Made by a program: the position numbers and the translations under genes. Shown piece after piece: positions 2,020-20,106 of a stretch of DNA of 20,106 nt. The stretch comes from Chrysochromulina tobinii (lineage: Eukaryota > Haptophyta > Prymnesiales > Chrysochromulinaceae). The stretch is taken from assembly GCA_001275005.1 (NCBI GenBank), contig JWZX01001566.1:1-20106 (forward strand). The letters run 5' to 3'. Under the pieces are notes generated by a model. It had not been told where the DNA came from. It saw only the letters and a program-made list of their open reading frames with translations, and searched no databases. How positions within the stretch are numbered: position 1 is the stretch's first letter; each line of letters starts with the position of its first letter.

Positions 2020-3943
2020 ATGAACTCAATCGCACCAGCGATTTCGACACAGGCCGACGAGGACAAACCGGCCGCAGTTCGTGCCGCGGAGGCGATTGCA
2101 GAGGCGGAGATGGCGGCTGCTGAGCAAGCCAAGGCTCTTTTAGCGGCACAGGAGATGGCCCTGCGCGCGGCATCCGCTCAAGCATACGCGGAGGAGGCAG
2201 CGCGCGAGGCAGCGGAGGCGGAGGAGGCGGCCATGCGGGAAGCGCTTCAGGAGTTCCCAACCATCTCCTTCGCGGAGCATCTGCGTCAGGCCGAGGAGTC
2301 CAAGGCGCGTGAGGATCTCCTCGACAAGAAGAAGCTCGATCGAAGCGCAGGCGCAGCTCGACCTGGGACGTACGAGCGTCGCTCGGTGCCGGCAGCGAGC
2401 TCGGAGCACCCTGCGCGCGGTCAGCCACCGCCGCCTAAGCACGACGAGCCGACGCGGGACGACCGATCCCGGGACGACCGATCCCGGGACGAGCGATCCC
2501 GTGCGGACCAAGCAATGAGCTGGCGACGCGCCGAAGAGCCGAAGCAACAGCCACACGCCTCGAGCTACGCGCCCAGTTGCGTGCCCGCGCCCAAGCCACA
2601 GAAGATGGCTTGGACAGGCGCCGTGTCGAGCGGTGCCGCGGCAGTTGCCGACAGCTCCCCCTGGCAGCCCGAGCACTCAGCGTCAGCGCTGGACGGTACC
2701 GATGGTGGCCCCTCCGGGCAGAGATCGGCCAGCTCCGCGATCTCGTGCTCGAGCTCCGCGAGCTCCGGCCAGAGATCGGCCAGCTCGAGCTCGTCTGCTC
2801 ACGCACCCGCCACGGCCGACGCTGGGAGCAGCGGTGGCAGCAGCAGCGGGACCGCTCGACACGGCGCTCTTCGAGAGGCGCGCGCGTGGCATTCCGGTGC
2901 CGAGTCGGGCGCCGTCACGGGCGCTCAGAGACTCACACTCCAGCAGATCCAGGCGGAGGAGGACGCTCGACAGAGGGAACGGCTCGCGGCGGCCAACTCG
3001 CCATGGCAACGGCCGTCCGGTCCGGGGAGTTCGCCATGGCAACGGCCCGCGCAGAGCACCGCGCCGCTCTCGACGAGCGCCGAGTTTGAGCACCAGCCCG
3101 CCCGCCGAATGGAAGCCTAGCGGGAGTGTGCAGGTCATCACGCGCCGTACTGAGCCGGTCATCTCGCGGCCCACGCCGAGCAGCAGCAGCGGCGCCGTCT
3201 TGAGCGAGGACGCGCCGGGCAGCGCGCATGCCGCCATGTGCTCGGGCTCTGGCGCCGTACCGAGCGCACCCTTCGCTTCGGCGGGCGCGATCGGTGCAGC
3301 ATCGGCCAGTGCGGCAGGCCCGAGCCACTCGCCGAGATCCAAGGGAGCTGCTCACGAGATACCGCCGAGATCCAAGGGAGGCGCGTATGAGGGGATGAGC
3401 TATGAAGAGGCCAAGCAGATGGTGCTCGCACGTGCCAAAGCCGCGGAGGCGAAGCGTCGTGCCGAGCGCGCTGTGGAGAAGGGCGCACCGACGCCCACCA
3501 CGACGCCCTCAGCCCTTGGAGGAGCCAGCTTGGGCGCCGTCTTGGGCGCTCGAGAGGCGCTTCGGCAGCCGTCGGGTGTCTCTTCCGGCGGCAGCCCAGT
3601 CCGCCACGCGATGCCAACACCGCTGCCGCCGGCGCCCCTTCTCCAAACGAATCCACTTGAGCGGCAGCTACCTACCCGCCCAGCGAGCTTCACAGCACCG
3701 GGTACGTTCACAGCTCCGGGTGCCTTCACAGCTCCGGGTGCCTTCACAGCACCGGGTGCGGCTCCCGACGCTGGCAGCATGGCGGACAAGGTTCGTCAGA
3801 TTCGGGCGGAGCTCTTGATCGACCCGAGCTTGTCGATGGCGGCCACCATCGCCGAGGCGAATGAGCAAATGGGCTTGGTCGCCCAAGGGCCGCTGCTATC
3901 GCAGGTCGAGGAGCTGCTCGCTGTGATGGGCCTCAACCGTTAA
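2020..3943 (+). CDS. Low-complexity protein ending in a shared 48-aa domain
   Basis: Function unknown. The ORF from ATG 2020 codes well to about 3100: an Ala/Glu-rich N-terminal coil, a region with a tripled DDRSR-type repeat, Ser-rich low complexity, then LTLQQIQAEEDAR followed by two SPWQRP motifs. That frame stops at 3118-3120, but the +1 frame continues in the same style to TAA 3941-3943, with a doubled PRSKG motif, a Lys/Arg/Ala helix (MSYEEAKQMVLARAKAAEAK), four FTAPGx units and the C-terminal domain. A 106-nt intron at 3015-3120 would restore the frame and give about 605 aa; a 1-nt sequence error is equally possible. The C-terminal 48 residues align without gaps to the N-terminus of the next gene. 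The IQxEE plus tryptophan-proline pattern recalls motifs in scaffold and translation-repressor proteins, but this is weak. The start is the first ATG in frame. Confidence 0.6.
2456..2500 (+). repeat. 15-bp tandem repeat, 3 copies
   Basis: Three units of gggacgaccgatccc (third copy gagcg) encode RDDRS/RDERS repeats in the upstream low-complexity gene. The charged Arg/Asp/Ser unit is likely disordered. Confidence 0.7.
3015..3120 (+). other. Candidate 106-nt intron or frameshift zone
   Basis: The first reading frame of the 2020-3943 gene ends in TAG at 3118-3120, while the +1 frame is clearly coding further on. A GT at 3015 and an AG at 3119-3120 bound a 106-nt segment (3n+1). Its removal joins SPWQRP to GSVQVITRR in frame. 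The donor context (cggcc|gtccgg) is weak, and removal would lose the second SPWQRP motif, so a single-base error between about 3076 and 3118 is an equal alternative. Confidence 0.35.
3689..3760 (+). repeat. 18-bp tandem repeat, 4 copies
   Basis: Four 18-bp units of the type ttcacagctccgggtgcc encode FTAPGT/FTAPGA repeats just before the C-terminal 48-residue domain. This is probably a flexible linker. Confidence 0.75.
3793..3936 (+). other. 48-aa shared domain (C-terminal copy)
   Basis: The last residues of the 2020-3943 gene, from VRQIRAELLIDPSL to EELLAVMGL, align over 48 positions without gaps to the N-terminus of the next gene, with 19 identities by my count. Conserved positions include I, E-L, DP, A-N, M, GPL, QV, LL and VMG. 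It looks like a small helical domain. I do not recognise it as a named family. Confidence 0.7.
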
Positions 3944-4906: not shown

Positions 4907-7900
4907 ATGTCACTCCCGTCCAAGGTCGAACGCATCAAGTGGGAGCTTGGCCTCGATCCTGGAATGCCGCTGAGCCTCGCCGTCACCACCGCGAACGACG
5001 TGATGCGAGTGGAGCCGAGTGGCCCGCTGCCGGAGCAGGTCGATAGGCTGCTGGTCGTTATGGGCATCGCGCTCCGCAGCGACAACATCAACCTGCCGTC
5101 AACATCCGCCAGTGCGGCGGGGCGGCCGCAGCCGCGCCGCTCCTCTGAGGAAAGCTTACGTCAGCAGCGGCCGGCTCCACCGAACGACGGCAGGCAGCCA
5201 ATGCCGCGTGTTGGGCAGCAGCAGCGTCCCCCGCCGCCGCCAGCAAGCTACCAGCAGCAGTACCAGCGACCGCCACCGCCGGGGCAGCAGCCGATGCCAA
5301 TGCCAGGGCAGCGACCGCCACCGCCGGGGCAGCAGCCGATGCCAATGCCAGGGCAGCGATCGCCACCGCCGGGGCAGCAGCCGATGCCAATGCCAGGGCA
5401 GCGACCGCCACCACCGGGGCAGCAGCCGATGCCAATGCCAGGGCAGCGACCGCCACCGCCGGCGCAGCAGCCAATGCCAATGCCAGGGCAGCGACCGCCA
5501 CCGCCGGGGCAGCAGCCGATGCCAATGCCAGGGCAGCGACCGCCACCGCCGGGGCAGCAGGCGCCGCCGCCGCGCCCGTCGGCTGCCGCCATTCCCCGGC
5601 CGGCGCCGCAAGCGGCTCGGCTATGGTCGCCTGAGGCGCCATCGCCGCTCCGCGAGAGCATACGCCAGCAGGGGGCGAGTGCCGTGCCGAGCGCCCATCT
5701 CCAGCCTCCGCCGCAGCAGCAGCAAGTGCCGCAGCAGCTGCGACAAGCGCCAGTGCAGTCGCTGTTGGAGGCACGCGGTCTTCCTTCGCCGCGGTCTCCG
5801 CCTGTCAGCCTCGGTGGCGGTCCTCCTTCGCCGCGGTCTCCGCCGCATGCGCTGTCAGCCTCGGTGCATGCCTCAGCGCCGCACACCACAGCGCAGTCCA
5901 CCACACCGCCGCGCATGGCACCGCTCGCGCCGTCTTCGGGGCGGACCGTATTCACACCCTCGGGGCGGACCGTATTCACACCCGCCCAACCCACCCTCGG
6001 GCCCTTGCCACCCCCAGCGGCACCCACTGACCACACAGCGCAGGCGGCGGTGGCGGCGGGCGGGGCGGCGGTGGCGGCGGGCGGGGCGGCGGTGGCGCTC
6101 GAGGGCGAGGCGCTCGCCGCGGCTGTGGCGGCTGCAAAGGCAAGGGCGAAGGCGAAGGCCGAGGCGGCGAGGGCGGCGGCTGCGGCTGCGCAGGCGGAGG
6201 CCGAGGCAGCCGAGGCGGCGGCGAAGGCTCTGGAGCAAGAACACATGGCTGCGATCGCTCACGCACGCGCGCTCGGGTCGCCTTCGCCCTCGCGCACCAT
6301 GTCCACTCACGCCGCCGGAACCGACAGCACCAGCAGCATCACAAGCAACAGCACCTTCACCGCGTCTGCACCAGCCGCATCCGTCGCGCCCACGCTCGTG
6401 CCCACGCCCGTGCCCACGCCCGCGCCCACGCCCATGCACACGCTCGTGCCCACGCCCGTGCCCACGCCCGCGCCCACGCCCGTGCCCACGCCCGCGCCCA
6501 CGCCCGCCGCGCCCGTGCCCGCGCCCGCCGCGCCCGTGTCCACCGAAGCGCAGCATGCATCGACGGCGCCGCGCCGTTACCTCCGCCCTAGCATTCTCAA
6601 CGCCCTCGCAGGCATCGACGATGGCGACGCGTCGGCGGCGTCGGCGGCAGCGGCTTCATCTGACCCGGCTTCATTTGGTTCATTTGGGGCTTCGTTTGAT
6701 CTCCTGAGCGCTCTCAAAGACCTGCGTGCGCAGGGGTTGCTTGAGAGCTGCTTGAAAGCCTTTGCGCCGCCGCGGCCGGGTCCACACGCGCCTCTCGACG
6801 TGCCCTCCTTCCGGCGGCGCTCGCTCGATGCGGCCATCAAGCACTTGAACGCCGCGGCCAAGCTCCACACGGGGTCGCCCAAGGAGGGCAGCGCGCCGGA
6901 GGGTGGCGTGGGCGCCGTCGTGGGCGCACCGGAGGGCGGCGCGGCAAGCAAGGGCGCGACTTCGGACGTGCCGCCCACGACGGCGCCGACCTTGCCCGAG
7001 CTCGCCCTCTATGGCGATGGTTTGGTCGAACGGCTGACGGGAGCGGACTTGGCGGAGCATGCGGCGAGTTTGGGCGTGCCGCATCGCACGCTCATCCTCG
7101 CATGCACGGGCGATGGCATCGAGCATCTGCTACTGCGCATGCATCTGTATCTGAGCCACGCGCCCACAGGCCAACCGCTCCTGCGCGCGCAGAGCCACTG
7201 CCTACTCATCGGCGCCAACAACTTGCTCGCGGACCTGGGGCAAGCCGAGCAGGTGGAGCGGGCGGCGGCGCGGGCTCCTGGGCGTGCGGGTGCGGCGCTC
7301 GCGGCCTCGGCGGCGCTCGAGGCGGCGCTCGAGGCGGCCGCATCGCCCGCGCTCGTGGTGCAGGGCATCCAAGAAATTGTAGACCTGCTGCGTGCCTCGC
7401 AGCTTGCCGAGACGCGCGCCCACGATAGCGCTCACGATAGCGCCCACGGTGGCGATGGCGGCACTGGCGACAGTGAAGGCAAGCGCGCGCGCGGCCACGG
7501 AAATGGCGGGAATAGCAGCACTGGCGCCCATGACGTTGTCGATGGGGACGCCCGGAAAGGCGCGGGTGGCGAGGGCGGCAACCTCGCTGAGGGCCCTGCC
7601 GGCGCCCATGACAGCGGCAGCAGCGACGCCCACGGCGTGTTTGTGTGCAAGCTGCTGCATGTAGTGGGCACGCAACCGTGGGTAGCCCAGGCCAACGAGC
7701 GCATCGACGCTGTGAACGCGCTGCTGCAGGCACACTTGCGGGGCGCGACGCTCCTCCGTCCCTCCATCCCGGCAGAGCGCAAGTACTACGACGCGAGTGG
7801 GATCCACCTGAGCTTGATCGGGTACAAGCGACTCGTGGGGCAGCTGACGAGCCTCGTGCCCACCTTGAACGCAAGCGCCAAGGCCGAGGCTAGAAAGGCG

Positions 7901-10900
7901 CAGCAGGTGGCCGACGAGGAGGCGGCGGCGGCCATGGCGGCAGCGCAGGCGGCGCTCGAAGCAGCCGAGACGGCGCGAAAGGTGGTGCTGCAGTCCAAGC
8001 TCCACTTCTCGCGCGCCAAGGCTGAGACTGCTCAAGCCATCCGAGCCGACGCGGACATCGCCACAGAGGAGGCGCGCATTGCCGCCATTGAGTACAAGTA
8101 CTGGTCCGAGGGCGTGGCGGCCGCACGCACGCGCGCCGCGGCCGAGGTGCTCCAAGCAAGCATGCGGGCGCGCCGGGCGCGCCTCGCCGGCGAGATCGCG
8201 CCCACCGTGGGTGCGGCAGTATTGACCGCCTCTGCACGCGAGCACGCAACGACCAGTGGCGACGAGCGCTCGCAGCATGAGAGATTCGGCTTGTGGACGC
8301 GCAAGCGCTCGTGGGCGGCGACGGTGCTCCAGACCTTTGTACGCAGCCGAATGCTCGACAAGGGCGTGGGATGCGAGCCGTGCGATGACGACGACGAGTT
8401 CGCCGACGAGGGCGGCGAAGGCGAGGGCGCCGACGGTGCTTGCTTCCGGTGCGGCCAACTCGGCCACAGGGCAAAGCGCTGCCGGATGCGCATGCCCATC
8501 GACCCGAGCGTGCCTTGTAAGGCGAAGCTGCGCCTGCGCCCGTATTATGATCAGCGGGTGGACGAGGAGACGGGGGAGCTCGTCACGCGCATCCGCGTGG
8601 GCTGTCGCCTGTATGTCGGCCCCATTAGCCAAAAGGGGCCGACGAAACTTCGATTGCGTGTGGAGCCTGAGACGGGACACGTGATAGCCGAGATCCAGCT
8701 GTGGTATCGGGAGCGCAATGAGGAGGAGCTCGACCGTAGCGGTACGAAGCGGGCGCTCTGCCGCTTCTTCGAGCGCTTCGGCAACTGCTCACGCGGCGGC
8801 TCGTGTCCGTATGCGCACGGCTGGGTGGAGCTGACCGACGAGGCGAAGCTCGAGCTCGCTGCGGAGAGGGAGAAGCAGTCGGTGATCCCCGTCGGGCGCA
8901 TGCCGATGCGACGCGATGACTTGTACGGGCACTACAAGACGCGCCTGTGCGAGACTTGGACGGCAACTGGCCAATGCGCGCTCGGGAGCACGTGCAGCTT
9001 CGCCCATGGCGATGAGGAGCTGCAGAGACAGAAGCGGGGGCTGAGTGAGCGCGAGATTTTCAAAATCGAGCAGGCGAACCGCTCTAAGGTCTGCCGGTCG
9101 TGGCAGATGACGGGCGAGTGTCCCAACGGCACCGCATGCCTCTTCCGACATACAGGTGATTGCCTCTGATTGCCTCGGTGATTGCCTCCAATTGCCTCGG
9201 AAAGTCTCTTGTTGCGACTGATAGCAGCTGATAGCAGCTGATAGCAGCTGATGGCAGCTGATGGCAGCTGATGGCAGCTGATGGTCTTTTTGAGCGCCTC
9301 TGACGCTCGCTTCTGACGCTCGCGTGTCTCGTCCGATACGCAGACGATGAGGGCGGCGGGCGCGGCGGGCGCGGTGGGCGTGGCGGGCGCGGGCGCGGGC
9401 GCGGCGGCGGCGGGCGCGGGCGTGGCTTTGGTGGTGGCGAAGGCGGCGGCGACGGGGGCGTCGTTTGCTTGTGCCTCAAGCCGTTTAGCGGCTGTCGGCT
9501 GTGGCCTCTGGCGGAGCAAGGAATCGCTCGCTCTCACACGCTGCGAGCGGGCATGCCCTCCGGCCTCAACAACTGTACCACCACGATGCTCGGCAACGAA
9601 TCGCAGCTGTGCGCCACCTTTTTCCATGCGAATTCGTGGGAGGCAAACGTGAAGCTGTGCCTGCACTGGCCGGCCGATGAGAGTGGCTTGGCGAAGGCAT
9701 CGTACAATAGCCTGACGCCCGAGCAGCGTGATCGCATCCGAAAGTGCTCCAAGTCGCAGGTGGCGGTGATCGCACGGCTCACGTGCACGCCCGAGGCGCA
9801 AGAGGCCTGGTTGGAGGAGGCCGCCGAGCTGGCCGAGGTGGCGGCCCTGCGGCGCAAGGCTGCCATCGCCGCGGCGCAGGCCAAGGTCAGAATGGATCAG
9901 AAGGCCGACAAAGAGCGCCGCGCCGCCGAGGCCGCGAGGGCCGTCGCTAAGGCGCGTGCGGATGATGCGGCGGCGGCGGCGGCTCGCGAGGCGGCAAGGG
10001 CAAGGATCCTTGCAAGATGGCAACGCTCGCCACCGGTCGCGCTGGAGCTCTTCACTGCCGGCACCCCCGGACGCCTTGCGCTCCGGCTGAGTATTGGGGC
10101 TGCCACCGCCGCAGTCCGGGCAGCGCGTGCGCCGCTCGTGCGCGTGATAGCAGCTTCGGCTGATTCCGTTGAGGTACGCGTCACCTTTACTCTGCCGCCG
10201 CCACTCTCGCCGCCGGCGCTGTCGCCGCCCGCACCCCGGGCGCAGGCAGAGTCCATGGAGGCGCCGAAGAAGGACGCAACCGCGGTTGACGATGCCTCCT
10301 CGGCAGCTGAGGCGGCCGCGCCCGAGGCGGCGGCGTCAAAAGCGGCGGCGCTCGAGGTGTCCTCTGGGCCAGAGGCGGCGGCGCCGAACACAGCGCCGGC
10401 AGGTGAGGCAGTGGAGGCGGCGGCAACAGATGAGGCGGCGGCGACAGAGGAGGCGGCGGCAACAGAGGAGGCGGCGGCAACAGAGGAGGCGGCGACAACA
10501 GAGGAGCCGGCGGAGGAGACGGAATTGGAGCGCGAGGTGCGAGAGCGCGCAGAGGCACGCGCGCGCCAGCGGGCGGCGGAAGAGGCCGAGAGAGATGTCG
10601 ACTTATACGTGGCGCGGTACGCCAACTGCTACCGCGGCAACACGGACGTCAACATCCATGCGGAGGAGTTCCTGCTGGAAGACCTGCAGCTACTCGAGAC
10701 GCTCCACGGGCGCGTCTCTCACGCAGACCGACTACTCGCGGATGCGGTCAAGTCCCTCGGCGGTGGCGGCGGAGGCGGCAGCGGCCCCAAGAACAACACC
10801 TTCACGCCTGGGCTGGTCGAGGTAGTGAACACGAGCTCAGACGATCCATTCGGACGCTTCGGAGGCCCCAAGCCCGGTGCCCCTCCGCCTAACATTGGGG

Positions 10901-11457
10901 ACTTCCTTGCTCAGACTCGAGAGCGGGAGGCGGAGACAGGGCTGCGGCTGCTTCTGTACATGACGTACCAACCGTGTCACCACTCCGGCGGGAGGGTGCC
11001 TAAGGAGGCGCTCGGTCGCCTCTCGTACGCCTCTTCGGCCCCCGTGCACCCGGCTACCTGCTCCGAGAGTCTGCGCGACTTTTACATCAAGGAGCTGCGC
11101 CCGTACGGCGTGGCGCTCGAGCTCGTGCTCGCGGACGTGTACAAGGCCACGTGGGATGAGGAGTTACATCCCTCCGAGGTGGAGCGGCAGGTGTACTCGA
11201 ACAAGTCCGAGTCGGCGCGCGAGGGTATGCGGATGCTCCTCGCGGAGGGCATCACCATGCGCGCAATGCAACCCGCCGATTGGGACTTCATCGTCAGCCT
11301 CTGCGACCCGGAGGTGCAGCAAGCGTGGGCCAAGCGCGGCACGCCCGAGGCCGGTCCCTTCTCGAAGCTGCACGTGGCAATGCGCAATGCGATGGACCAG
11401 TACCTCGCCGGCTACATCGCTGCCGATTGGCGCGGCGACACGTACGCCGTGCTGTGA
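4907..11457 (+). CDS. CCCH zinc-finger / RGG / AID-APOBEC-like deaminase fusion
   Basis: I read one gene of two exons, 4907-9155 and 9344-11457, giving about 2120 aa. Domains in order: 48-aa shared domain (residues 5-52); [15 protein letters not shown] repeats (120-219); Ala-rich coil (380-450); PTPVPTPAP repeats (495-545); PAF-acetylhydrolase-like SGNH fold (about 695-985) with GDG instead of GDS; Ala/Glu coil with IQ-like motifs (988-1150); CCHC knuckle (1179-1192); three C-X8-C-X5-C-X3-H fingers (1285, 1348, 1396), the second TTP-like with YKTRLC; RGG box (1417-1454); Ala/Glu-rich region; and a deaminase domain (about 1845-2090) with HAE at 1855-1857, PC at 1960-1961 and a later Cys 1989. 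The likely role is binding RNA and deaminating cytidine in RNA or ssDNA. The start is ATG 4907, the first ATG in frame, just before the shared domain; a GTG at 4823 is less likely. If splicing is wrong, the two ORFs (4907-9169 and ATG 9553-11457) would be adjacent genes. Confidence 0.72.
4919..5062 (+). other. 48-aa shared domain (N-terminal copy)
   Basis: Residues about 5-52 of the deaminase-fusion protein, from [14 protein letters not shown] to RLLVVMGI, align without gaps to the C-terminus of the upstream gene. The match begins almost at the chosen ATG, which supports that start. Confidence 0.7.
5264..5561 (+). repeat. 45-bp tandem repeat, six copies plus a partial
   Basis: Units of 45 bp begin at 5264, 5309, 5354, 5399, 5444, 5489 and 5534 (partial) and encode [15 protein letters not shown] with very few substitutions. 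The near-identity points to recent expansion, so copy number is likely variable between strains. The Pro/Gln/Met-rich unit suggests an extended, phase-separating or SH3/WW-binding segment; this is inference. Confidence 0.9.
6388..6540 (+). repeat. PTPVPTPAP coding repeat
   Basis: A run of 12-bp cccacgcccgtg / cccacgcccgcg units encodes Pro-Thr-Pro-Val/Ala repeats in the deaminase-fusion protein, forming a stiff linker before the SGNH-like domain. Confidence 0.8.
6998..7860 (+). other. SGNH/PAF-AH-like domain lacking catalytic Ser
   Basis: Within the deaminase-fusion protein, residues about 697-985 carry the SGNH hydrolase blocks in order. Block I is [10 protein letters not shown] (GDG at 703-705, where GDS is expected), block [19 protein letters not shown], block III IGANNLL (769-772), and block [14 protein letters not shown] (His 967). 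The block II pattern GDxxxHxLxR resembles PAF acetylhydrolase Ib catalytic subunits. The nucleophile Ser is Gly705, and the Asp expected three residues before His967 is Ser964 (the nearest Asp is 962). A Gly/Asp/His-rich insertion of about 75 residues lies between blocks III and V. It is probably an inactive binding fold. Confidence 0.65.
8441..9151 (+). other. CCHC knuckle and three CCCH zinc fingers
   Basis: The cluster starts with [14 protein letters not shown] (C-X2-C-X4-H-X4-C) at 8441. After a basic, beta-rich stretch with two KLRLR-containing half-repeats come three C-X8-C-X5-C-X3-H fingers starting at 8759, 8948 and 9092. The second, preceded by YKTRLC and followed by GDEEL, is close to the tristetraprolin type. 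Such fingers typically bind single-stranded RNA. The final His codon is at 9149-9151, four bases before the proposed splice donor. Confidence 0.92.
9156..9343 (+). other. Predicted 188-nt intron with tandem repeats
   Basis: The junction tacag|gtgatt at 9155/9156 and atacgcag|acgatg at 9343/9344 has GT-AG ends. Removal (phase 1 intron) joins ...FRHT to [12 protein letters not shown] in frame, linking the zinc-finger ORF to the deaminase ORF. Unspliced, the first ORF ends five codons into the intron. The intron contains attgcctc repeats and six 10-bp units. Confidence 0.68.
9221..9280. repeat. 10-bp tandem repeat inside the intron
   Basis: Three copies of atagcagctg are followed by three of atggcagctg, preceded at 9159-9199 by four degenerate copies of attgcctc. 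Both arrays lie entirely inside the predicted intron, which agrees with relaxed constraint there. Confidence 0.85.
9344..9459 (+). other. RGG box
   Basis: In the frame of the deaminase ORF, this segment encodes DDEGGG, then repeated RGG/RG units ending in [13 protein letters not shown]. Arg-Gly-Gly boxes bind RNA, often G-rich, and are methylation targets. It lies upstream of any ATG in its own ORF, so it is translated only if the intron joins it to the zinc-finger exon or an upstream start is used. Confidence 0.7.
10425..10515 (+). repeat. Ala/Glu-rich coding repeat
   Basis: An 18-bp-type unit (gcggcggcaacagaggag) repeats about four times and encodes AAATEE blocks in the linker just before the deaminase domain. 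Confidence 0.7.
10618..11385 (+). other. AID/APOBEC-like deaminase domain
   Basis: The domain opens with [15 protein letters not shown], the HAE zinc/proton-shuttle motif (CAT GCG GAG at 10657-10665). It continues with a strand and [14 protein letters not shown] (PC codons 10972-10977), then [11 protein letters not shown] (Cys codon 11059-11061). After that come the strand [13 protein letters not shown], helix [13 protein letters not shown], strand ITMRAM and PADWDFI. The order and the EGxxxLxxxGI.....DWxxF ending follow the AID/APOBEC branch of the deaminase fold rather than tRNA- or nucleotide-type deaminases. The second Cys lies 28 residues after the first instead of the usual three. Activity is inferred, not shown. 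Confidence 0.7.
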
Positions 11458-12340: not shown

Positions 12341-12363
12341 ATGGCGCAGATGATTCTTAACAA
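12278..12363. repeat. 25-bp perfect inverted repeat spanning the channel's first ATG
   Basis: Arms 12278-12302 and 12339-12363 pair perfectly over 25 bp with a 36-nt loop (12303-12338), which itself can form a small cagg/cctg hairpin. The ATG at 12341 lies in the right arm. It could act as mRNA structure, a transcription terminator-like foldback or a foldback element remnant; the sequence does not decide. Confidence 0.85.
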
Positions 12364-14638
12364 GTGGAACCGCTCTCACTCCAGCCAAGGCCCTCGTGGT
12401 TCTGGTTCATTTCTGTTAGCCAGGCAGAGTAATCATGCTCGCATGAACTACTCGCCGCGAACCGAGCAGCTGCTGGCAATGCGCACACAAGAGCTGCAAG
12501 CAAAGGTGGACACGCTCGAGCGCCGCGTGCGCCAGCAGTCCATCGAGCTCAGCCAGAAGAGCCGCCTCGCCTTCACGGGCGGCACATTTGGCGACCACTG
12601 GGCGCAATGCGTTGGCCACTTTGGCCAGGCGTGTGCCTCCCTTTGCCGCTCCGGCACGCGCTCCGGCACGATCGAGCCGATTGACCACGAAGGCAGCAGC
12701 AACGCCTCCATCCCAAGGCCTCGATCGCCCGCGCGCGTCTCGTTGGTCCAAGACCGGCGCGACGGGAAATCATCAACAAGCACGATCCCGGACTGGTCGT
12801 GCGGTGTCGAGAGGCGCTTCAAAGCAGTCGAGCTGTTGCCGCAGTTGAACGAGGTAAAACAGGACTCAAAAGAGGGGCCGCTCGAGGACCACGAGTACCT
12901 GCTCGACGACGAGTGGAGAATCCTGCCCTCCAACTGTATCATCTACCCGAAGTCGAAATGGAAGGAGACGTGGGACTTGACTGTGCTCTTCATGATCCTC
13001 TACTCGGCTGTGACCGTGCCCTTCCGCATCTGCTTCTCCGCGGAGGCGGAGGGGTGGCTGCTCGTTTTCGAGATCTTCGTGTCGCTCATCTTCTGCGTCG
13101 ACGTCATCTTCAACTTCAACCAGGCCTACCTGATCGACGACAAGTGGATCATCTCGCGCTCGCGCATCGCCTCGCGCTACCTGCGCTCGTGGTTCTGGAT
13201 CGACGCGCCGTCTTCGGTGCCTATCGAGCTGATCACGCTCTTGGCCGCGACCGAAACCAACAGCCAACTGACCCTGCTGCGATTCCTGCGTATGTTCCGG
13301 CTGCTGCGGCTGCTGCGGCTGCTCAAGATTGACGTGTACATCGCGCGCATCGAGGACACCTTCGAGATCAACCTGGTCTCGCTGCGCATCCTGGGCATGG
13401 TCACTCGTCTGCTCTTCATAGTGCACTTCCTCGGCTGCTTCTGGTGGTACGTGGCCATCTGCTCGCTCGAGGCGGGGTACGAGACCTCGTGGACCCTCGC
13501 GTACAACGGCGGCGCCGCGATGGAGGCACCCGTGAACCTACAGTACCGGTACTCCGTGTATTGGGCGCTCACCACGCTCACGACCGTCGGCTATGGCGAC
13601 CTCACGCCCCAAAACGACTGGGAGCGCGACTACTGCATGTTGGCGATGCTCATCGGCGCCATGATGTTCGGCTACATGGTGTCGACGATCGGCTCTATGG
13701 TTGCCACGCTCGACAAGGAGGCAGCCATCAAGGAGGACAGGATGGACGCGGTCAAGGAGTGGATGGCCTCCCGCAACATCCAGCAGAAGCTCTTCGTGCG
13801 CGTGCGCAATTACTACCAGCACTACTACACCAAGAAGAGCGCTTTCAATGAAGACGAGATTCTCGCGTCGCTCACGCCTAGCCTGCGCAACGAGTGTACC
13901 GCCGTGCTCCTGCGCGAAACCCTGGGCATCTTCCCGCTCTTGGCAGTTCTGGGCGTCGATTTCCAGCGTGCCGTGTACCCCCATCTCAAGCCGGTAATGC
14001 ACGCGCACCAGGACGTCATCTACGCGCGCGGCGAGAAGGCGGAGGACATTTACTTTCTGCGCAACGGCACCGTCGACGTGCTCGCGGGCGGCTTTGGCAC
14101 CGAGGTGCTCTACCGCATCAACCATGGCCAGCACTTTGGCGAGGAGGTGCTCACCAACCAGAAGCGCGCCTCGCACGTCACCTCAAATGGCATGAGTGAG
14201 ATGTGGACCCTCACAAAGGACGCCCTCGAGGGGGCGGTGCGCTTGCTCCCCGGGGCGCGCACCAAGCTTGAGGAATTCTGTGCGCTCGAGCTCGAGCGCA
14301 AGCAGCGGCTCAACTCGCTCTCGTACCGTGCCCTCATCGCCTCGGCTGGGTCGGCCGATCGCCGCGCCGCGCTCATCATGCAGAAGGCGTGGGTCTCGTA
14401 TGCGAACAAGAAGGCGCGCGAGGCGTCCATCCTCGCCCCCGCCCCCGCCCATCCAGAGGGCGCCGGCGCCGGCAAACCGACCACCACCCAGTCCGGCGCG
14501 CTCCAAGCGGCGCTCGCAGACATCAAGCAGGAGCTCAAGACGATGAAGGCGACGATTGCATCACAAGGCGGCATGCTCGAGCACGTTGCACGATTCACGC
14601 GAGAGCAAGAAAAGGAGAGGAAAAAGTACGGGGCGTGA
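12341..14638 (+). CDS. Voltage-gated K+ channel with cyclic-nucleotide-binding domain
   Basis: A 765-aa six-TM channel of the EAG/CNG/plant-Shaker superfamily in a surface or organelle membrane. S1 starts near residue 211. S4 (about 310-330) has a basic residue at every third position (LRFLRMFRLLRLLRLLK), a good voltage sensor. The filter is TVGYGD (415-420), indicating K+ selectivity. After S6 comes a C-linker (KEWMASRNIQQKLFVRVRNYY) and a cyclic-nucleotide-binding fold with HFGEEVL (about 598-603) and KRAS, keeping the Glu and Arg that usually contact the nucleotide. An IQ-like helix (ALIMQKAWVSYANKK) and a C-terminal coiled coil (about 720-765) follow. No PAS or ankyrin domain is seen. The first ATG lies in an inverted repeat; an alternative start, M35 at 12443, would begin just before a coiled coil (TEQLLAMRTQELQAKVDTLE) and give 731 aa. 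Single exon. Confidence 0.92.
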   Translation: MAQMILNKWNRSHSSQGPRGSGSFLLARQSNHARMNYSPRTEQLLAMRTQELQAKVDTLERRVRQQSIELSQKSRLAFTGGTFGDHWAQCVGHFGQACASLCRSGTRSGTIEPIDHEGSSNASIPRPRSPARVSLVQDRRDGKSSTSTIPDWSCGVERRFKAVELLPQLNEVKQDSKEGPLEDHEYLLDDEWRILPSNCIIYPKSKWKETWDLTVLFMILYSAVTVPFRICFSAEAEGWLLVFEIFVSLIFCVDVIFNFNQAYLIDDKWIISRSRIASRYLRSWFWIDAPSSVPIELITLLAATETNSQLTLLRFLRMFRLLRLLRLLKIDVYIARIEDTFEINLVSLRILGMVTRLLFIVHFLGCFWWYVAICSLEAGYETSWTLAYNGGAAMEAPVNLQYRYSVYWALTTLTTVGYGDLTPQNDWERDYCMLAMLIGAMMFGYMVSTIGSMVATLDKEAAIKEDRMDAVKEWMASRNIQQKLFVRVRNYYQHYYTKKSAFNEDEILASLTPSLRNECTAVLLRETLGIFPLLAVLGVDFQRAVYPHLKPVMHAHQDVIYARGEKAEDIYFLRNGTVDVLAGGFGTEVLYRINHGQHFGEEVLTNQKRASHVTSNGMSEMWTLTKDALEGAVRLLPGARTKLEEFCALELERKQRLNSLSYRALIASAGSADRRAALIMQKAWVSYANKKAREASILAPAPAHPEGAGAGKPTTTQSGALQAALADIKQELKTMKATIASQGGMLEHVARFTREQEKERKKYGA

Positions 14639-15038: not shown

Positions 15039-18000
15039 TCACGGCTTGGTCATGAACGCGAAGCACGACGTAATGGCCTGGACGCTGAGGTCGAGCAGGT
15101 TCACGATTGTCTCTCCGCAAAAGTTGGCGAAGAACTCGGACGCGAAGAGAATGGGGAAGCCCTTGGCAGCGAGGATGAGCACGGGCTCGTTGACTACGAA
15201 GCGCTGGAATACGCAGAAGATCCACGCAAAAATGAGCTGCTGCCACATGCCACCGCCGACAAAGAGTTCGCATGCGTAAAAGATGAAGGTGATGAGGAGC
15301 CCGAACCAAACGACCAGGCTGGCCACCCACCCGAACAGGATCCTGCGCACGTCAGCCCAGTGACGCAAATGCACCGATCGTGTCAGAGACTGCACCAGCA
15401 TCCAGTCGTCGAGGCTCGCATAGGAAAACTTGCGGTCCTTGACCGGGCGGTTTCTGTTGGATGCTTGCTGCAAGAGGCTTTTGAGACGAGGTTTGCTGCC
15501 GTCTTTCGACTGTCGTCTGTCGATGCGCTTCTCAGCTGCACGATCCTTCGCAAGAGCGCTGTGTCCGCAGCGAATACGAACGCGCGGGCGCTCTCGCTTG
15601 CGCTCGGATCCTTCTTCTGGAGGCGAAGGAGGTGGCGATGCAGCAGAAAGTGACACTCCGCTCTCCACACACGTCTCCACACACATCGCCAGTGCAGAGG
15701 AAAGCTTGACTCCGCCCTCTTGACAAGCCCGCGCACCACAACGCTTCCTGAGCTCCTCAAGTTTCCGCTGCGCCTCAAGCACCTGCTCCTCGGCCGCCTT
15801 TTTGGCAGCACTTGCCTCTGCCAGCGCAGAGACTTGATTCATCGCGCGCACTTTGCTCATGGCTCCGCGGAGCCGCGCACGCCCTAGGGGGATGCCATCG
15901 CCTGATGGCTGGATTGAATCTCCCGATGGACGTGAAGGGGGCTCGTCAACGGCCGGTTCTGAGCTGCCGAGCTCCAGAGGGCTCATGACACCAGCGGCTG
16001 CTCCCGCGGTCCGATCCTCGGCTTGGAGCCCGAAAACCGACGGGCCCTTCCTTGACGAAACCGACGGATCCTCGGCTTCGAGCCCTTCTCCCTTGAACGC
16101 CTCGAGGACCACGGGGAGGTGCACCGTTGCCGTTGGCCGTGCCTCGAGCTCAGGGCGAGGATCCGTCGGTTTCGTCAACGTCCCTGTTGCGAGTTGAGCT
16201 CCCGGCCTTGCGTCGAGCTGCTCCACGACGTCGGCCTCACGCACGGGCCTGAGGCCCTGATCGGACGACCCCACGGCATCGACCGTTGGAACCCTTGTGC
16301 AGGGCGCCAGGCCGAGACTGGCCGTGGAGCTCATATGAATAGCATCAGAGATCGAAGAGCCAGGTAGAGAGAGCACTACTCTGGCGCCGCGCGTCAGTTT
16401 CCGCCCTCCAGCAGAAACAGAGAACTCAAACTTGGGGCGGAAATAATTGTCACCTGCCTTGATGAAACATTTCTGATTGACACGAAGGAGCCCGAAAGCC
16501 CGGAGGTCAGCTTCATAGAACCAAGTGCGGCGCTGTAGGGCAAAAGCCAGCTGCGCATTCCTGAGCTCGTAGCAGCGTCCCGTCGTCGGTAGAGTGGATC
16601 CGATGAGTTCCCACGCCAACCCATCTGGCGGTACGGCCTCCTCAACTTTGGTCGTCTCGTCACTCTTATCCGGAACGATGAGTCGGTACAGCTTACGGAG
16701 TGGCCAGCCGAAAAGCAGTGTAAGCAATCGGATGGGCACGCGCGCGAGGAACTCCGGCTCAAAAAGCCAGCCTAAGGTGAGCATAGCTGGGATGCAAATA
16801 GCTGCTGCAATGCTCGCAGAAAAGACGATGCCGACCGGATTGATTACCATGGGTTCGCCGTTTGTTGGGCCCGAGTAAAACATGCACAAGATCACCAATT
16901 CGAGGTTGATTGAGTTGAAAAGCACCATCACGGTCATCGCGCGGGTTGCGCCGCTCGCCCCGCGATAGACGAGCCCAGAGAGCAGGGAGTGCGATCCCTT
17001 GAAGGCTAGCCAAATGCGCTTGTACGACCGGTCGACATCCTTGCTCCATCGCTTTGCAAGCACTTCCTTCTGTGCCTCCAGCTTGGCCTGTGACCAGCGG
17101 TGTGCGGCCGAGACGCGCGGAGTTTGGCCAGAGCCGGCGTCGGCAGCCGGCGCCTGGCCCCGATTGCCAAAGATCCCAAGCACGTCCTTTTCTATTCTCT
17201 TTCGCTCGTGGCGCACTGCAATTTTGACTCGCTGCTGCTTGGCCAGCACGGCCCGTGGACCCACTTCAAATGTGACTCGCTCCTGCCTGCCCAGCTCATG
17301 CAGACTCCGTGTAAGCGGAGCAGGTACGGCCCGTGGACCCACATCAAATGTGACTCGCTCCTGCCTGCCCTGCTCACGCTTTAGTATCACGTCCTGGAGA
17401 CTCCGCTTGCGTTCGAGACTCCGTGAAAGCGGAGCAGGCGGAGACTCATCCAGAGAGGTCCTCTCATGCTTGGCCATTACAGGTGGCGACTCATCCAGAG
17501 AGGTTGTCAAACGCCGGGGCCGTGCACGCGGAACAGCACCACCGGCCTCCTCGTCGATCTCATCGATGCTGACCTCTTCTGCAGGCTTGAAGGCCTCAAC
17601 GAAGGTCTCTTGAGTGGCGCCGAAAAATGGGGCAGTGGCCGGGGAAGCTCCGTCGGCTGTTGCGGTGGCTGACGCTGCTTTGTCTGCGGGATCAGCTGTC
17701 GGCCCACGCGGCGTACTGCTCTGGCCGAGGGCGTTGGCTGCCAACGCAGTCCAACCCAAGCTCCACCAGCGCCGCTGGTGTCGAGCGGCGCCGCTGCCCG
17801 CAGCCCCATTGGTGGAAGCGGCAGCCACCGTCTTGTCCCTGGCCGAGCTGCCGCCTGCCACCGCCGGCGCGGCCGCTCTCTTGCTCATCACGTCCGTGGC
17901 GGCGTTGACATTCCCAGCCTGACCCGCGACCGCCTTCAAGACTGTTGCCTTTTGTATCGCGCCTTTGCCCTGCGCCGACTTGGCCGCTTCGGCAGGGCTC

Positions 18001-20106
18001 ATGGGACGACGTGGATTTGGTGCAACTCGTGGGGGTGCGGTCGAAAGTACGGAGGACATTGGGGGCGACGGCGGAGGCGAAGGCTGCCCAGCACGATCAT
18101 CAAAGCCGCCGATTTGGGAAGGGAGGGGCTGCTTCTCCTGCTTGATGCCGAAGACCGCGGATGACCTGAGCGCCGCGAGTGACTTCCCCTTTGAACCCTG
18201 AGCAAGCGTCGCCGATTTTCTCGTGCTTGTGGCGCTCTGCTGCTGCGGATGCTTCTCTTGCTTGATGCCGAAGACCGCGGATGACCTGAGCGCCGCAAGT
18301 GACTTCGCCATTGGACCCTGAGCAGGCGATACCGATTTTATCCTGCTGGTAGCGTTTATCCCGCTGGTGGCGTCCGATGCCGCTAACAATGAGCTCCATG
18401 TTGCCGCTTTCCCCTGAGTCTCCGATGCCGCGATGAATGAGAGATCCCCGCGTGACGACGCACGCAATAAGAGATGTTGAATATCTTGTCCGGATTTGGT
18501 TGCCTTCTTCCTGCCGACGATTTGAGAGATGCTCTTGAGTGCCTTCCGCTGCGCCTCCAGCTTGCGACCTTTGACAAGCAGCTCGGTGACAGCAATCTCC
18601 GCTCGATCGCGACGGACCGCATTGACGAGACTGATGACGAGGGCCACGATGAGAAGCATCACGAGACACCAAACCACAGGATCTTTGTCGATCCGTGGAT
18701 TTAAGGCGCACTGCACGGCGCTGATGCTCATGGTGTTGATGGTCACTGACTCCAGGATCGTGTCGAGTAACTCTTCTACGGTGAGAGGAAACTCAAAGGC
18801 GATGAACTCGGTGAGGTGGTTGCAAGAGCAGCCGACTCCGCCCTCCGGGTCAACGATCGTCCTGCAGCCGTCGGTCGACCAGAACCCCTCAGCCTCGTTC
18901 CAGAAGCGGCACTGGACGATCGTGTCACAACTCCACGACGAGGCCACATCGACGAGGCCGCCTCGGATTTCGATCGTTGGCTCCAAGGTGGGCTCGCCAA
19001 TGCACGGCGGCCGGCTATTGTTGACAGAGTTCACGCGGTAGGGCAGGCTGATTTCGATGGGTGTCGAGGCGTTCTTGATCTCAATCTTGTCCCCATTCGG
19101 CCGGAGCAGCTTAAAGGTGACCACCGGGCTTGCCTGCCCGGAGCTGACGCTACTCCCATCCTCCGACAGGCGCCGTAGGCCACGAGTGGCTGTCGGTGGA
19201 GCGTGCAAGTTGACAGCGGTGAGAAAAAGAACCACAGATACGGGCTCGGAGAGGTCGATGCCGGGCACGGTGTCGAGAAGGCCCGTGGGCATATGCACGA
19301 CTACGGTTGCCTCACCGAGGTTCGAGTCGCAGCTCATAGGCGTCGAGGCCAATGCCGAGGGCGGGCGCAACGCGATCGACATATTGAGGTTGGGCGACGA
19401 CAGCACAACGAGCTCAGACGAATTGCTCGAGCCGAGGCCTGAGGCGGTCGCCCGGATGAGCTCATCGACGGCGTTCCCAATCTGAACAGCGGCCTCGTTA
19501 GAGCTCGCGCTGCCCTGCGAGAATGCCTGCACTTCAAGCAAGCCGGAGACCGCGCCAACTACCGACTGGGCGCTCCCAGGGTCGAGTGACTCTGTCGTGG
19601 CGAGCACGTGGCTCAATTCATTCGCTGCTGCCGATACGGCAGCGGCGGCCTGCTCGGCGACAGCGGCCTGAGCTACCGCGTAGGCGCTGGCATTGTTGGC
19701 GCTGGCATTGCCGGCGCTGCCACCCGTCGGCGGGGTGAGCGCTGTCCACCCTCTCAACAAGTTGGTGGAGTCGATGATGGACACAAGCACCTCCGTGAGC
19801 GGTCGCAACGGCGGAGGAGGCTGCGAAGGCGGAGGTTTGGGAGGTGGCAACCGGGGCGGAGGTGGGGGCGTCCGCGGGAAGCCTACTGGCACGAGTGGCG
19901 GCCAGCTCGGTGGAGGAGGAGTTGGAGGTCGACGCGGGGATGGAGGCGGACGCAGCGGCGGTGGCGGCGGAGGCGCCAAAGGAGGCGACGATGGAGGCAG
20001 CGGCGGCGGGCTTGCTGGTGGCGGGCTTGGGGGGGGCAGCATTGGCGATGGTGGTGGCAAAGGTGGAGGTGGCGAGGGCCGAGGGGGGCTGGGTGGATGC
20101 TGGGGT
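15039..20106 (-). CDS. GPS/GAIN-domain multi-pass membrane protein, polycystin-1-like (5' partial)
   Basis: About 1688 residues are visible; the frame stays open to the window edge, so the N-terminus is missing. A Pro/Ser-rich extracellular stretch leads into a GAIN-like region with several NxS/T sites and a GPS motif (about 18800-18930) with CRFWNE, a tryptophan-GC step and CSCNHLTEF. The HL-T cleavage triplet is intact, so autoproteolysis is plausible. A helix (VVWCLVMLLIVALVISLV, about 18618-18680) follows. Next is a long basic, Ser/Ala-rich cytoplasmic region with a 40-aa tandem repeat and two RVTF motifs, then two helices (about 16766-16945), another soluble region, and at least two helices near the C-terminus (about 15122-15345). 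The architecture resembles polycystin-1/GPS proteins of protists; no PLAT domain or polycystin pore was recognised. A single exon in the window. Family members act as surface receptors or channel partners. Confidence 0.8.
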   Translation of the reverse strand, partial: PQHPPSPPRPSPPPPLPPPSPMLPPPSPPPASPPPLPPSSPPLAPPPPPPLRPPPSPRRPPTPPPPSWPPLVPVGFPRTPPPPPRLPPPKPPPSQPPPPLRPLTEVLVSIIDSTNLLRGWTALTPPTGGSAGNASANNASAYAVAQAAVAEQAAAAVSAAANELSHVLATTESLDPGSAQSVVGAVSGLLEVQAFSQGSASSNEAAVQIGNAVDELIRATASGLGSSNSSELVVLSSPNLNMSIALRPPSALASTPMSCDSNLGEATVVVHMPTGLLDTVPGIDLSEPVSVVLFLTAVNLHAPPTATRGLRRLSEDGSSVSSGQASPVVTFKLLRPNGDKIEIKNASTPIEISLPYRVNSVNNSRPPCIGEPTLEPTIEIRGGLVDVASSWSCDTIVQCRFWNEAEGFWSTDGCRTIVDPEGGVGCSCNHLTEFIAFEFPLTVEELLDTILESVTINTMSISAVQCALNPRIDKDPVVWCLVMLLIVALVISLVNAVRRDRAEIAVTELLVKGRKLEAQRKALKSISQIVGRKKATKSGQDIQHLLLRASSRGDLSFIAASETQGKAATWSSLLAASDATSGINATSRIKSVSPAQGPMAKSLAALRSSAVFGIKQEKHPQQQSATSTRKSATLAQGSKGKSLAALRSSAVFGIKQEKQPLPSQIGGFDDRAGQPSPPPSPPMSSVLSTAPPRVAPNPRRPMSPAEAAKSAQGKGAIQKATVLKAVAGQAGNVNAATDVMSKRAAAPAVAGGSSARDKTVAAASTNGAAGSGAARHQRRWWSLGWTALAANALGQSSTPRGPTADPADKAASATATADGASPATAPFFGATQETFVEAFKPAEEVSIDEIDEEAGGAVPRARPRRLTTSLDESPPVMAKHERTSLDESPPAPLSRSLERKRSLQDVILKREQGRQERVTFDVGPRAVPAPLTRSLHELGRQERVTFEVGPRAVLAKQQRVKIAVRHERKRIEKDVLGIFGNRGQAPAADAGSGQTPRVSAAHRWSQAKLEAQKEVLAKRWSKDVDRSYKRIWLAFKGSHSLLSGLVYRGASGATRAMTVMVLFNSINLELVILCMFYSGPTNGEPMVINPVGIVFSASIAAAICIPAMLTLGWLFEPEFLARVPIRLLTLLFGWPLRKLYRLIVPDKSDETTKVEEAVPPDGLAWELIGSTLPTTGRCYELRNAQLAFALQRRTWFYEADLRAFGLLRVNQKCFIKAGDNYFRPKFEFSVSAGGRKLTRGARVVLSLPGSSISDAIHMSSTASLGLAPCTRVPTVDAVGSSDQGLRPVREADVVEQLDARPGAQLATGTLTKPTDPRPELEARPTATVHLPVVLEAFKGEGLEAEDPSVSSRKGPSVFGLQAEDRTAGAAAGVMSPLELGSSEPAVDEPPSRPSGDSIQPSGDGIPLGRARLRGAMSKVRAMNQVSALAEASAAKKAAEEQVLEAQRKLEELRKRCGARACQEGGVKLSSALAMCVETCVESGVSLSAASPPPSPPEEGSERKRERPRVRIRCGHSALAKDRAAEKRIDRRQSKDGSKPRLKSLLQQASNRNRPVKDRKFSYASLDDWMLVQSLTRSVHLRHWADVRRILFGWVASLVVWFGLLITFIFYACELFVGGGMWQQLIFAWIFCVFQRFVVNEPVLILAAKGFPILFASEFFANFCGETIVNLLDLSVQAITSCFAFMTKP
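17250..17385 (-). repeat. Two-copy coding repeat with RVTF motifs
   Basis: Two copies about 78-81 bp apart, each containing the same ggcccgtggacccac segment, encode RQERVTFDVGPRAV and RQERVTFEVGPRAV in the cytoplasmic part of the GPS-domain protein. A degenerate third unit encodes QQRVKIAV. RVTF fits the RVxF docking consensus for protein phosphatase 1. Confidence 0.7.
18121..18345 (-). repeat. 120-bp (40-aa) tandem repeat
   Basis: Two adjacent copies offset by exactly 120 bp encode KSLAALRSSAVFGIKQEK units in the cytoplasmic region of the GPS-domain protein. High similarity indicates recent in-frame duplication. Confidence 0.8.
19800..20106 (-). repeat. Pro/Ser-rich extracellular linker
   Basis: On the minus strand this encodes dense PPPSPPP-type sequence running to the window edge. 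Such hydroxyproline-type stretches are common in algal surface proteins. It shows that the gene extends beyond the window. Confidence 0.75.

Follow-up and report, generated by a model that had tools for sequence, protein, structure and literature searches.

A gene predicted to encode an RNA-binding zinc-finger protein fused to an AID/APOBEC-fold deaminase was analyzed in the haptophyte Chrysochromulina tobinii. It occupies positions 4907–11457 on the forward strand of the window, a 20,106-nucleotide (nt) stretch of contig JWZX01001566.1 (contig C656 of the genome searched, which comprises 53,154,812 bases in 2253 contigs). The fusion of zinc fingers and deaminase and the AID/APOBEC fold of the latter are, taken jointly, almost certain. 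The coding sequence consists of exon 1 (4907–9155; residues 1–1416 plus one base, from a predicted start codon) and exon 2 (9344–11457, with the stop codon), both open and separated by a predicted phase-1 intron of 188 nt with GT-AG ends (9156–9343). Translation of the joined exons yields a single frame of 2120 amino acids (aa) with zero internal stops.

All three frames of the gap between the exons are closed by stops; 10-bp tandem repeats account for about 111 of its 188 bases, and a search of the genome listed 57 matches to it, including itself (56 others, some overlapping). The intron is probably spliced in this species, judging from its ends, the frame and the relatives described below; if it is retained, an in-frame stop arises at 9167–9169. 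The public EukProt/JGI Chrysochromulina model P0002, which like P0001 represents the same gene (100% identity over 244 residues and 98.9% over 269), speaks against a complete fused enzyme on two counts, as its first residues lie at the RGG box, without the fingers, and it splices out the segment carrying the HAE motif. The stop and the start of P0002 would both suit two adjoining genes, one for a CCCH protein that stops at 9169 and the other for the deaminase, but the GT-AG ends, the fit of the frame, the gap repeats, whose kind recurs across the genome, and, above all, homologous chains that cross the junction make this arrangement extremely unlikely.

At least 35 related proteins were collected: 23 in a search with the deaminase part, 17 (8 new) with a profile and 5 (4 new) from the distant member P0023. 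Two of the 35 come from EukProt (P0002, and P0033 from the assembly "SAG31"). In two of the protein searches, scoring was limited to the 8000 candidates with most words in common, and the family is therefore under-sampled. CCCH fingers and deaminase lie on one open frame in seven of the 35 (P0003, P0005, P0006, P0018, P0020, P0021 and P0031), and many of the remaining 28 are fragments. Nine of the 35 were used in a test of the junction. P0003 aligns with window residues 911–1563 in one unbroken blastp alignment at 51% identity, which spans the knuckle, the three fingers, the Gly-rich linker and the start of the deaminase, and hence the splice junction; the alignments of the other six fused relatives likewise cross it. 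This comparison is the strongest support for the fusion, and the separate-genes arrangement was rejected because both parts share one frame in seven relatives. A sequence-only reading of the window had proposed a single chain, which the 2120-aa frame and these relatives bear out; separate genes, which it had named as the result that would overturn it, are hinted at by P0002 alone and contradicted by the seven.

Exon 1 encodes a CCHC zinc knuckle (C1179–C1192; 8441–8482; Pfam zf-CCHC 1.5e-4) and three CCCH fingers: finger 1 (C1285–H1304; 8759–8818; Pfam zf-CCCH), finger 2 (C1348–H1367; 8948–9007; PDB matches), which has the tristetraprolin-type lead-in YKTRL, and finger 3 (C1396–H1415; 9092–9151; Pfam zf-CCCH and PDB matches). 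All three have C-x8-C-x5-C-x3-H spacing, and zf-CCCH matches three stretches of the joined protein at 9.5e-22. An RGG/GRG box, located by motif count, follows at 9352–9459, in a Gly/Arg-rich stretch of 41 residues holding four RGG and eight GRG. Knuckle, fingers and box were thus all found as first read from the sequence. Among solved structures, the fingers match PDB 9y10 (1.1e-12), tristetraprolin (1m9o; 3.3e-11) and butyrate response factor 2 (1rgo; 2.4e-9). To judge by these matches they are of the tristetraprolin type, a closer description than the earlier one, and share with tristetraprolin/TIS11 (ZFP36) the spacing and the YKT lead-in. ZFP36 has two fingers 18 residues apart, whereas the window protein adds a third finger, separates H1367 from C1396 by 28 residues and carries a fused deaminase. 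With this wider spacing, it has tristetraprolin-type fingers but is not a ZFP36 protein.

The deaminase domain extends from residue 1456 to 2120 (9460–11454) and begins with a CLC sequence conserved in relatives. An AlphaFold2 model compared with PDB structures shows the AID/APOBEC order of strands and helices over the whole domain. That order had been read from the sequence alone, for a segment at residues 1840–2100; the fold stands, but the domain starts at about residue 1456, not 1840. A model lacking the deaminase fold had been named as grounds for abandoning the proposal, and the fold is present. The fold matches listed for the window model are all AID/APOBEC; among solved folds, APOBEC3 proteins rank first, with AID tied within 1 Z. 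An insertion between strands 1 and 2 (residues 1565–1834; 9787–10596) consists of coiled coil and Ala/Glu-rich low-complexity sequence. AlphaFold2 confidence is low across much of it, and in alignment A1 (nine sequences, eight of them trimmed pieces) a long insertion at this site occurs in one of the nine, P0003.

Several results weigh against the AID/APOBEC-type RNA editor proposed below. Foldseek gives moderate TM-scores by target length, 0.37–0.47 for the window model against single-domain chains and 0.50–0.63 for P0005. The window scores 2.9e-5 and 24.6 bits against Pfam APOBEC_N, below the 25-bit cut-off, which is passed by P0003 (31.6), P0005 (30.9) and P0006 (28.9) and missed by five of eight relatives in one Pfam set; in a second set, all six relatives and both paralog frames from the same genome miss it. 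A PDB sequence search with the single deaminase sequence returned five chains and one with a profile a single unrelated chain, no deaminase being among either, and an NCBIfam search of five proteins gave no relevant match. Finally, the zinc cysteines are spaced from C-x17-C to C-x34-C across the family and do not form PCxxC. The second zinc cysteine of canonical AID/APOBEC enzymes lies 2–4 residues past the first (PCx2-4C). On the model, we file the family as AID/APOBEC-like by fold, and not as canonical AID/APOBEC, on account of this spacing.

The presumed active site is conserved. Alignment A2 comprises the window and 27 of the 35 proteins; it omits P0001 and P0002 (same gene; P0002 is the one without the HAE segment), P0027, P0029, and P0011, P0013, P0014 and P0015 (close relatives of P0012). 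The HAE motif (10657–10665), with presumed zinc ligand H1855 and catalytic E1857, has H and E in all 26 covering sequences, the window included. The PC motif (P1960–C1961; 10972–10977), with C1961 as presumed zinc ligand, is kept in 27 of 28, the sole exception being P0031, whose sequence stops soon after HAE. A second cysteine (C1989; 11059–11061), at the start of a helix that begins at model residue 536, is the presumed third zinc ligand and is present in all 27 covering sequences. The HAE and PC motifs of the earlier reading are thus located and, with the second cysteine, conserved in relatives. Near invariance of H, E and both C, distant members included, is as expected if the family were catalytic.

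The HAE motif and strand 2 lie on an in-frame GT-AG segment of 324 nt (10403–10726), the one missing from P0002. HAE is kept in the 26 covering A2 sequences (the window and 25 relatives), and the segment is therefore coding. The flanking splice sites seem usable from the sequence, and a product lacking the segment would be an RNA-binding protein without an active site; the segment is a possible exitron. Tristetraprolin proteins are known as regulators of mRNA decay, and the in-frame segment, together with its absence from P0002, could indicate that the protein regulates mRNA stability or splicing, the deaminase being inactive or a binding platform and the HAE-less form the working one. That almost every covering sequence retains H, E and both C argues against such a regulator, which we regard as improbable.

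We lean, by little over an even chance, towards an RNA editor: a nuclear gene whose fingers, knuckle and RGG box bind RNA and whose C-terminal domain deaminates C to U in the bound RNA. This proposal builds on an observed open frame and fingers, a predicted fold, invariant catalytic residues and a fused order seen in relatives. A passage in PMC12787238 states that tristetraprolin recognizes AU-rich elements of 3' untranslated regions (UTRs). The tristetraprolin-type fingers, CCHC knuckle and RGG box would hold RNA, probably AU-rich mRNA, and the tethered AID/APOBEC-fold domain would convert cytidine to uridine near the bound site. Enzyme activity is presumed from the conserved residues, and the substrate would be RNA rather than single-stranded DNA. 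RNA editing by APOBEC1 requires a cofactor, according to PMC7556403; the finger module may act in cis as the separate cofactor does for the vertebrate enzyme.

The fold itself does not reveal the substrate, and deaminase folds are known to act on many. Adenosine in RNA, tRNA or genomic single-stranded DNA would be very unlikely targets, as RNA-binding modules are fused in several family members and the listed fold matches all belong to a cytidine deaminase group. The enzyme might instead be a restriction factor, its fingers and RGG box binding viral or retroelement RNA and its deaminase mutating that RNA or its single-stranded DNA copy, as APOBEC3 does. Points in favor are the top rank of APOBEC3 folds (AID being level to within 1 Z), the presence of several paralogs in the genome and the viruses of Chrysochromulina parva that are on record. 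Function is not shown by a common fold, however, and the PDB list is filled by APOBEC3 entries; the long collinear match to P0003 would also be easier to reconcile with a conserved architecture than with a rapid arms race. We consider a restriction factor unlikely, though the likeliest alternative to the RNA editor.

In the compared rows, the window domain is 13–17% identical to vertebrate AID/APOBEC proteins (APOBEC3, AID, APOBEC1). The window family differs from them in having zinc cysteines 17–34 residues apart, and the window protein in its large insertion after strand 1 and its RNA-binding domains in cis. AID/APOBEC-like deaminases of algae were reportedly described by Iyer et al. (2011); Krishnan et al. 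(2018) are said to have added more clades, with the SNAD/NAD families. Like the window protein, these families have AID/APOBEC-like domains that do not belong to the classical vertebrate family, and Pfam SNAD4 and NAD1 match weakly, SNAD4 exceeding its cut-off in P0003 only (27.4 versus 27). Searches of the open-licence literature listed no paper on such a protein in haptophytes, and a single search on nuclear mRNA editing listed none for this algal group. The combination of an AID/APOBEC-like domain, zinc cysteines set far apart and built-in mRNA-binding-type fingers may be new within this known kind of enzyme.

PPR-DYW editing factors carry RNA recognition and a C-to-U deaminase on one chain, and offer a parallel in how the window protein would work, with a different RNA-binding module and deaminase family. 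One match to the DYW deaminase (PF14432) above the Pfam cut-off was found in the same genome (L041, G000:C341:4095–4325) and none in the window; by eye, the remainder of that frame is PPR-like. If the proposed editor is real, evolution would have arrived at targeted C-to-U RNA editing by two routes, that of the PPR-DYW proteins and this one. A natural enzyme with built-in mRNA-binding fingers would contrast with vertebrate APOBEC1, which edits mRNA with a separate cofactor, and the gene allows a direct test of host mRNA editing by AID/APOBEC-fold enzymes in non-animals.

Two further deaminase genes lie on contig C124 of the same genome and one on C2002, at least three in all. The C124 and C2002 frames searched gave no deaminase match in Pfam at E 0.1 and were assigned by similarity to family members. 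The C2002 frame runs from an Arg/Asp-rich stretch and a U2AF65-type RNA recognition motif (RRM) through Gly-rich repeats to the deaminase (L008 4209–5882, reverse strand; best PDB match of the RRM 2.5e-14). The gene looks like a recent chimera because contig C1755 has a longer U2AF65-like frame that is 91–95% identical in the common part; an assembly error at its repeat would look the same. Elsewhere in the family, Pfam finds six CCHC knuckles in P0023 and one in P0034, and the N-termini of P0011 and P0012 are rich in Gly, Arg and Ser. Tentatively, an algal AID/APOBEC-fold clade may have repeatedly gained RNA-binding parts in cis (tristetraprolin-type CCCH, CCHC, RGG and U2AF65-like RRM) and become self-targeting C-to-U editors of nuclear mRNA, the window editor being switched to a plain RNA-binding form by splicing out the 324-nt HAE segment; we regard this wider scenario as possible but doubtful. 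In a tree of 25 sequences (the window, 21 proteins and three paralogs from the same genome), support is 46 and 50 at two deep nodes, which leaves the order of gain of the fused parts unsettled. Pattern scans of viral and prokaryote contigs, which cover relatives sharing both patterns used, picked out 35 and 21 stretches, of which tblastn confirmed none.

Further features of the paralogs were observed. One (L007 1–1370) has PCHF for PCHH (MTQQPCHFASG), is split by repeat-filled gaps and shares its contig with a neighboring deaminase gene. In a C124 paralog, a short tandem repeat breaks the deaminase frame, comparable to the repeat-rich window intron. A predicted intron at about L007 3490–3600, and the matching place in L008, have a near-identical sequence of about 24 bp at both edges (CAGGTACGCCAACTGCTTCCG...), as if an exon piece had been duplicated in tandem.

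The N-terminal half opens with a module of about 56 aa (4907–5074) found at 11 places in the genome, including this gene and window 3776–3934. It also opens the relatives P0006 and P0021 (46% identity to P0021 residues 1–56), in agreement with the shared N-terminal domain noted at first, and has no Pfam match. Such modules of about 55 residues (4907–5074 and 3776–3934; L010, L011 and L012) are joined to proteins that are unrelated, among them a protein kinase and an ABC ATPase. A 45-bp tandem repeat (5264–5560) encodes Pro/Gln/Met-rich low-complexity sequence. The region at 6986–7870, common to P0003 from residue 911, had been read as a degenerate SGNH fold serving as a docking part, a suggestion that found no support: a Pfam search of 6986–7921 gave no match, SGNH family included, and no SGNH protein was among seven weak matches in a PDB sequence search. 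On these sequence searches the SGNH identity was set aside; the likeness appears to be a motif-only resemblance. The neighboring frames in the window encode a triose-phosphate-transporter family protein (210–1196), an ion channel with a cyclic-nucleotide-binding domain (12341–14638) and, on the reverse strand, a long frame with a GPS motif (15039–20105).

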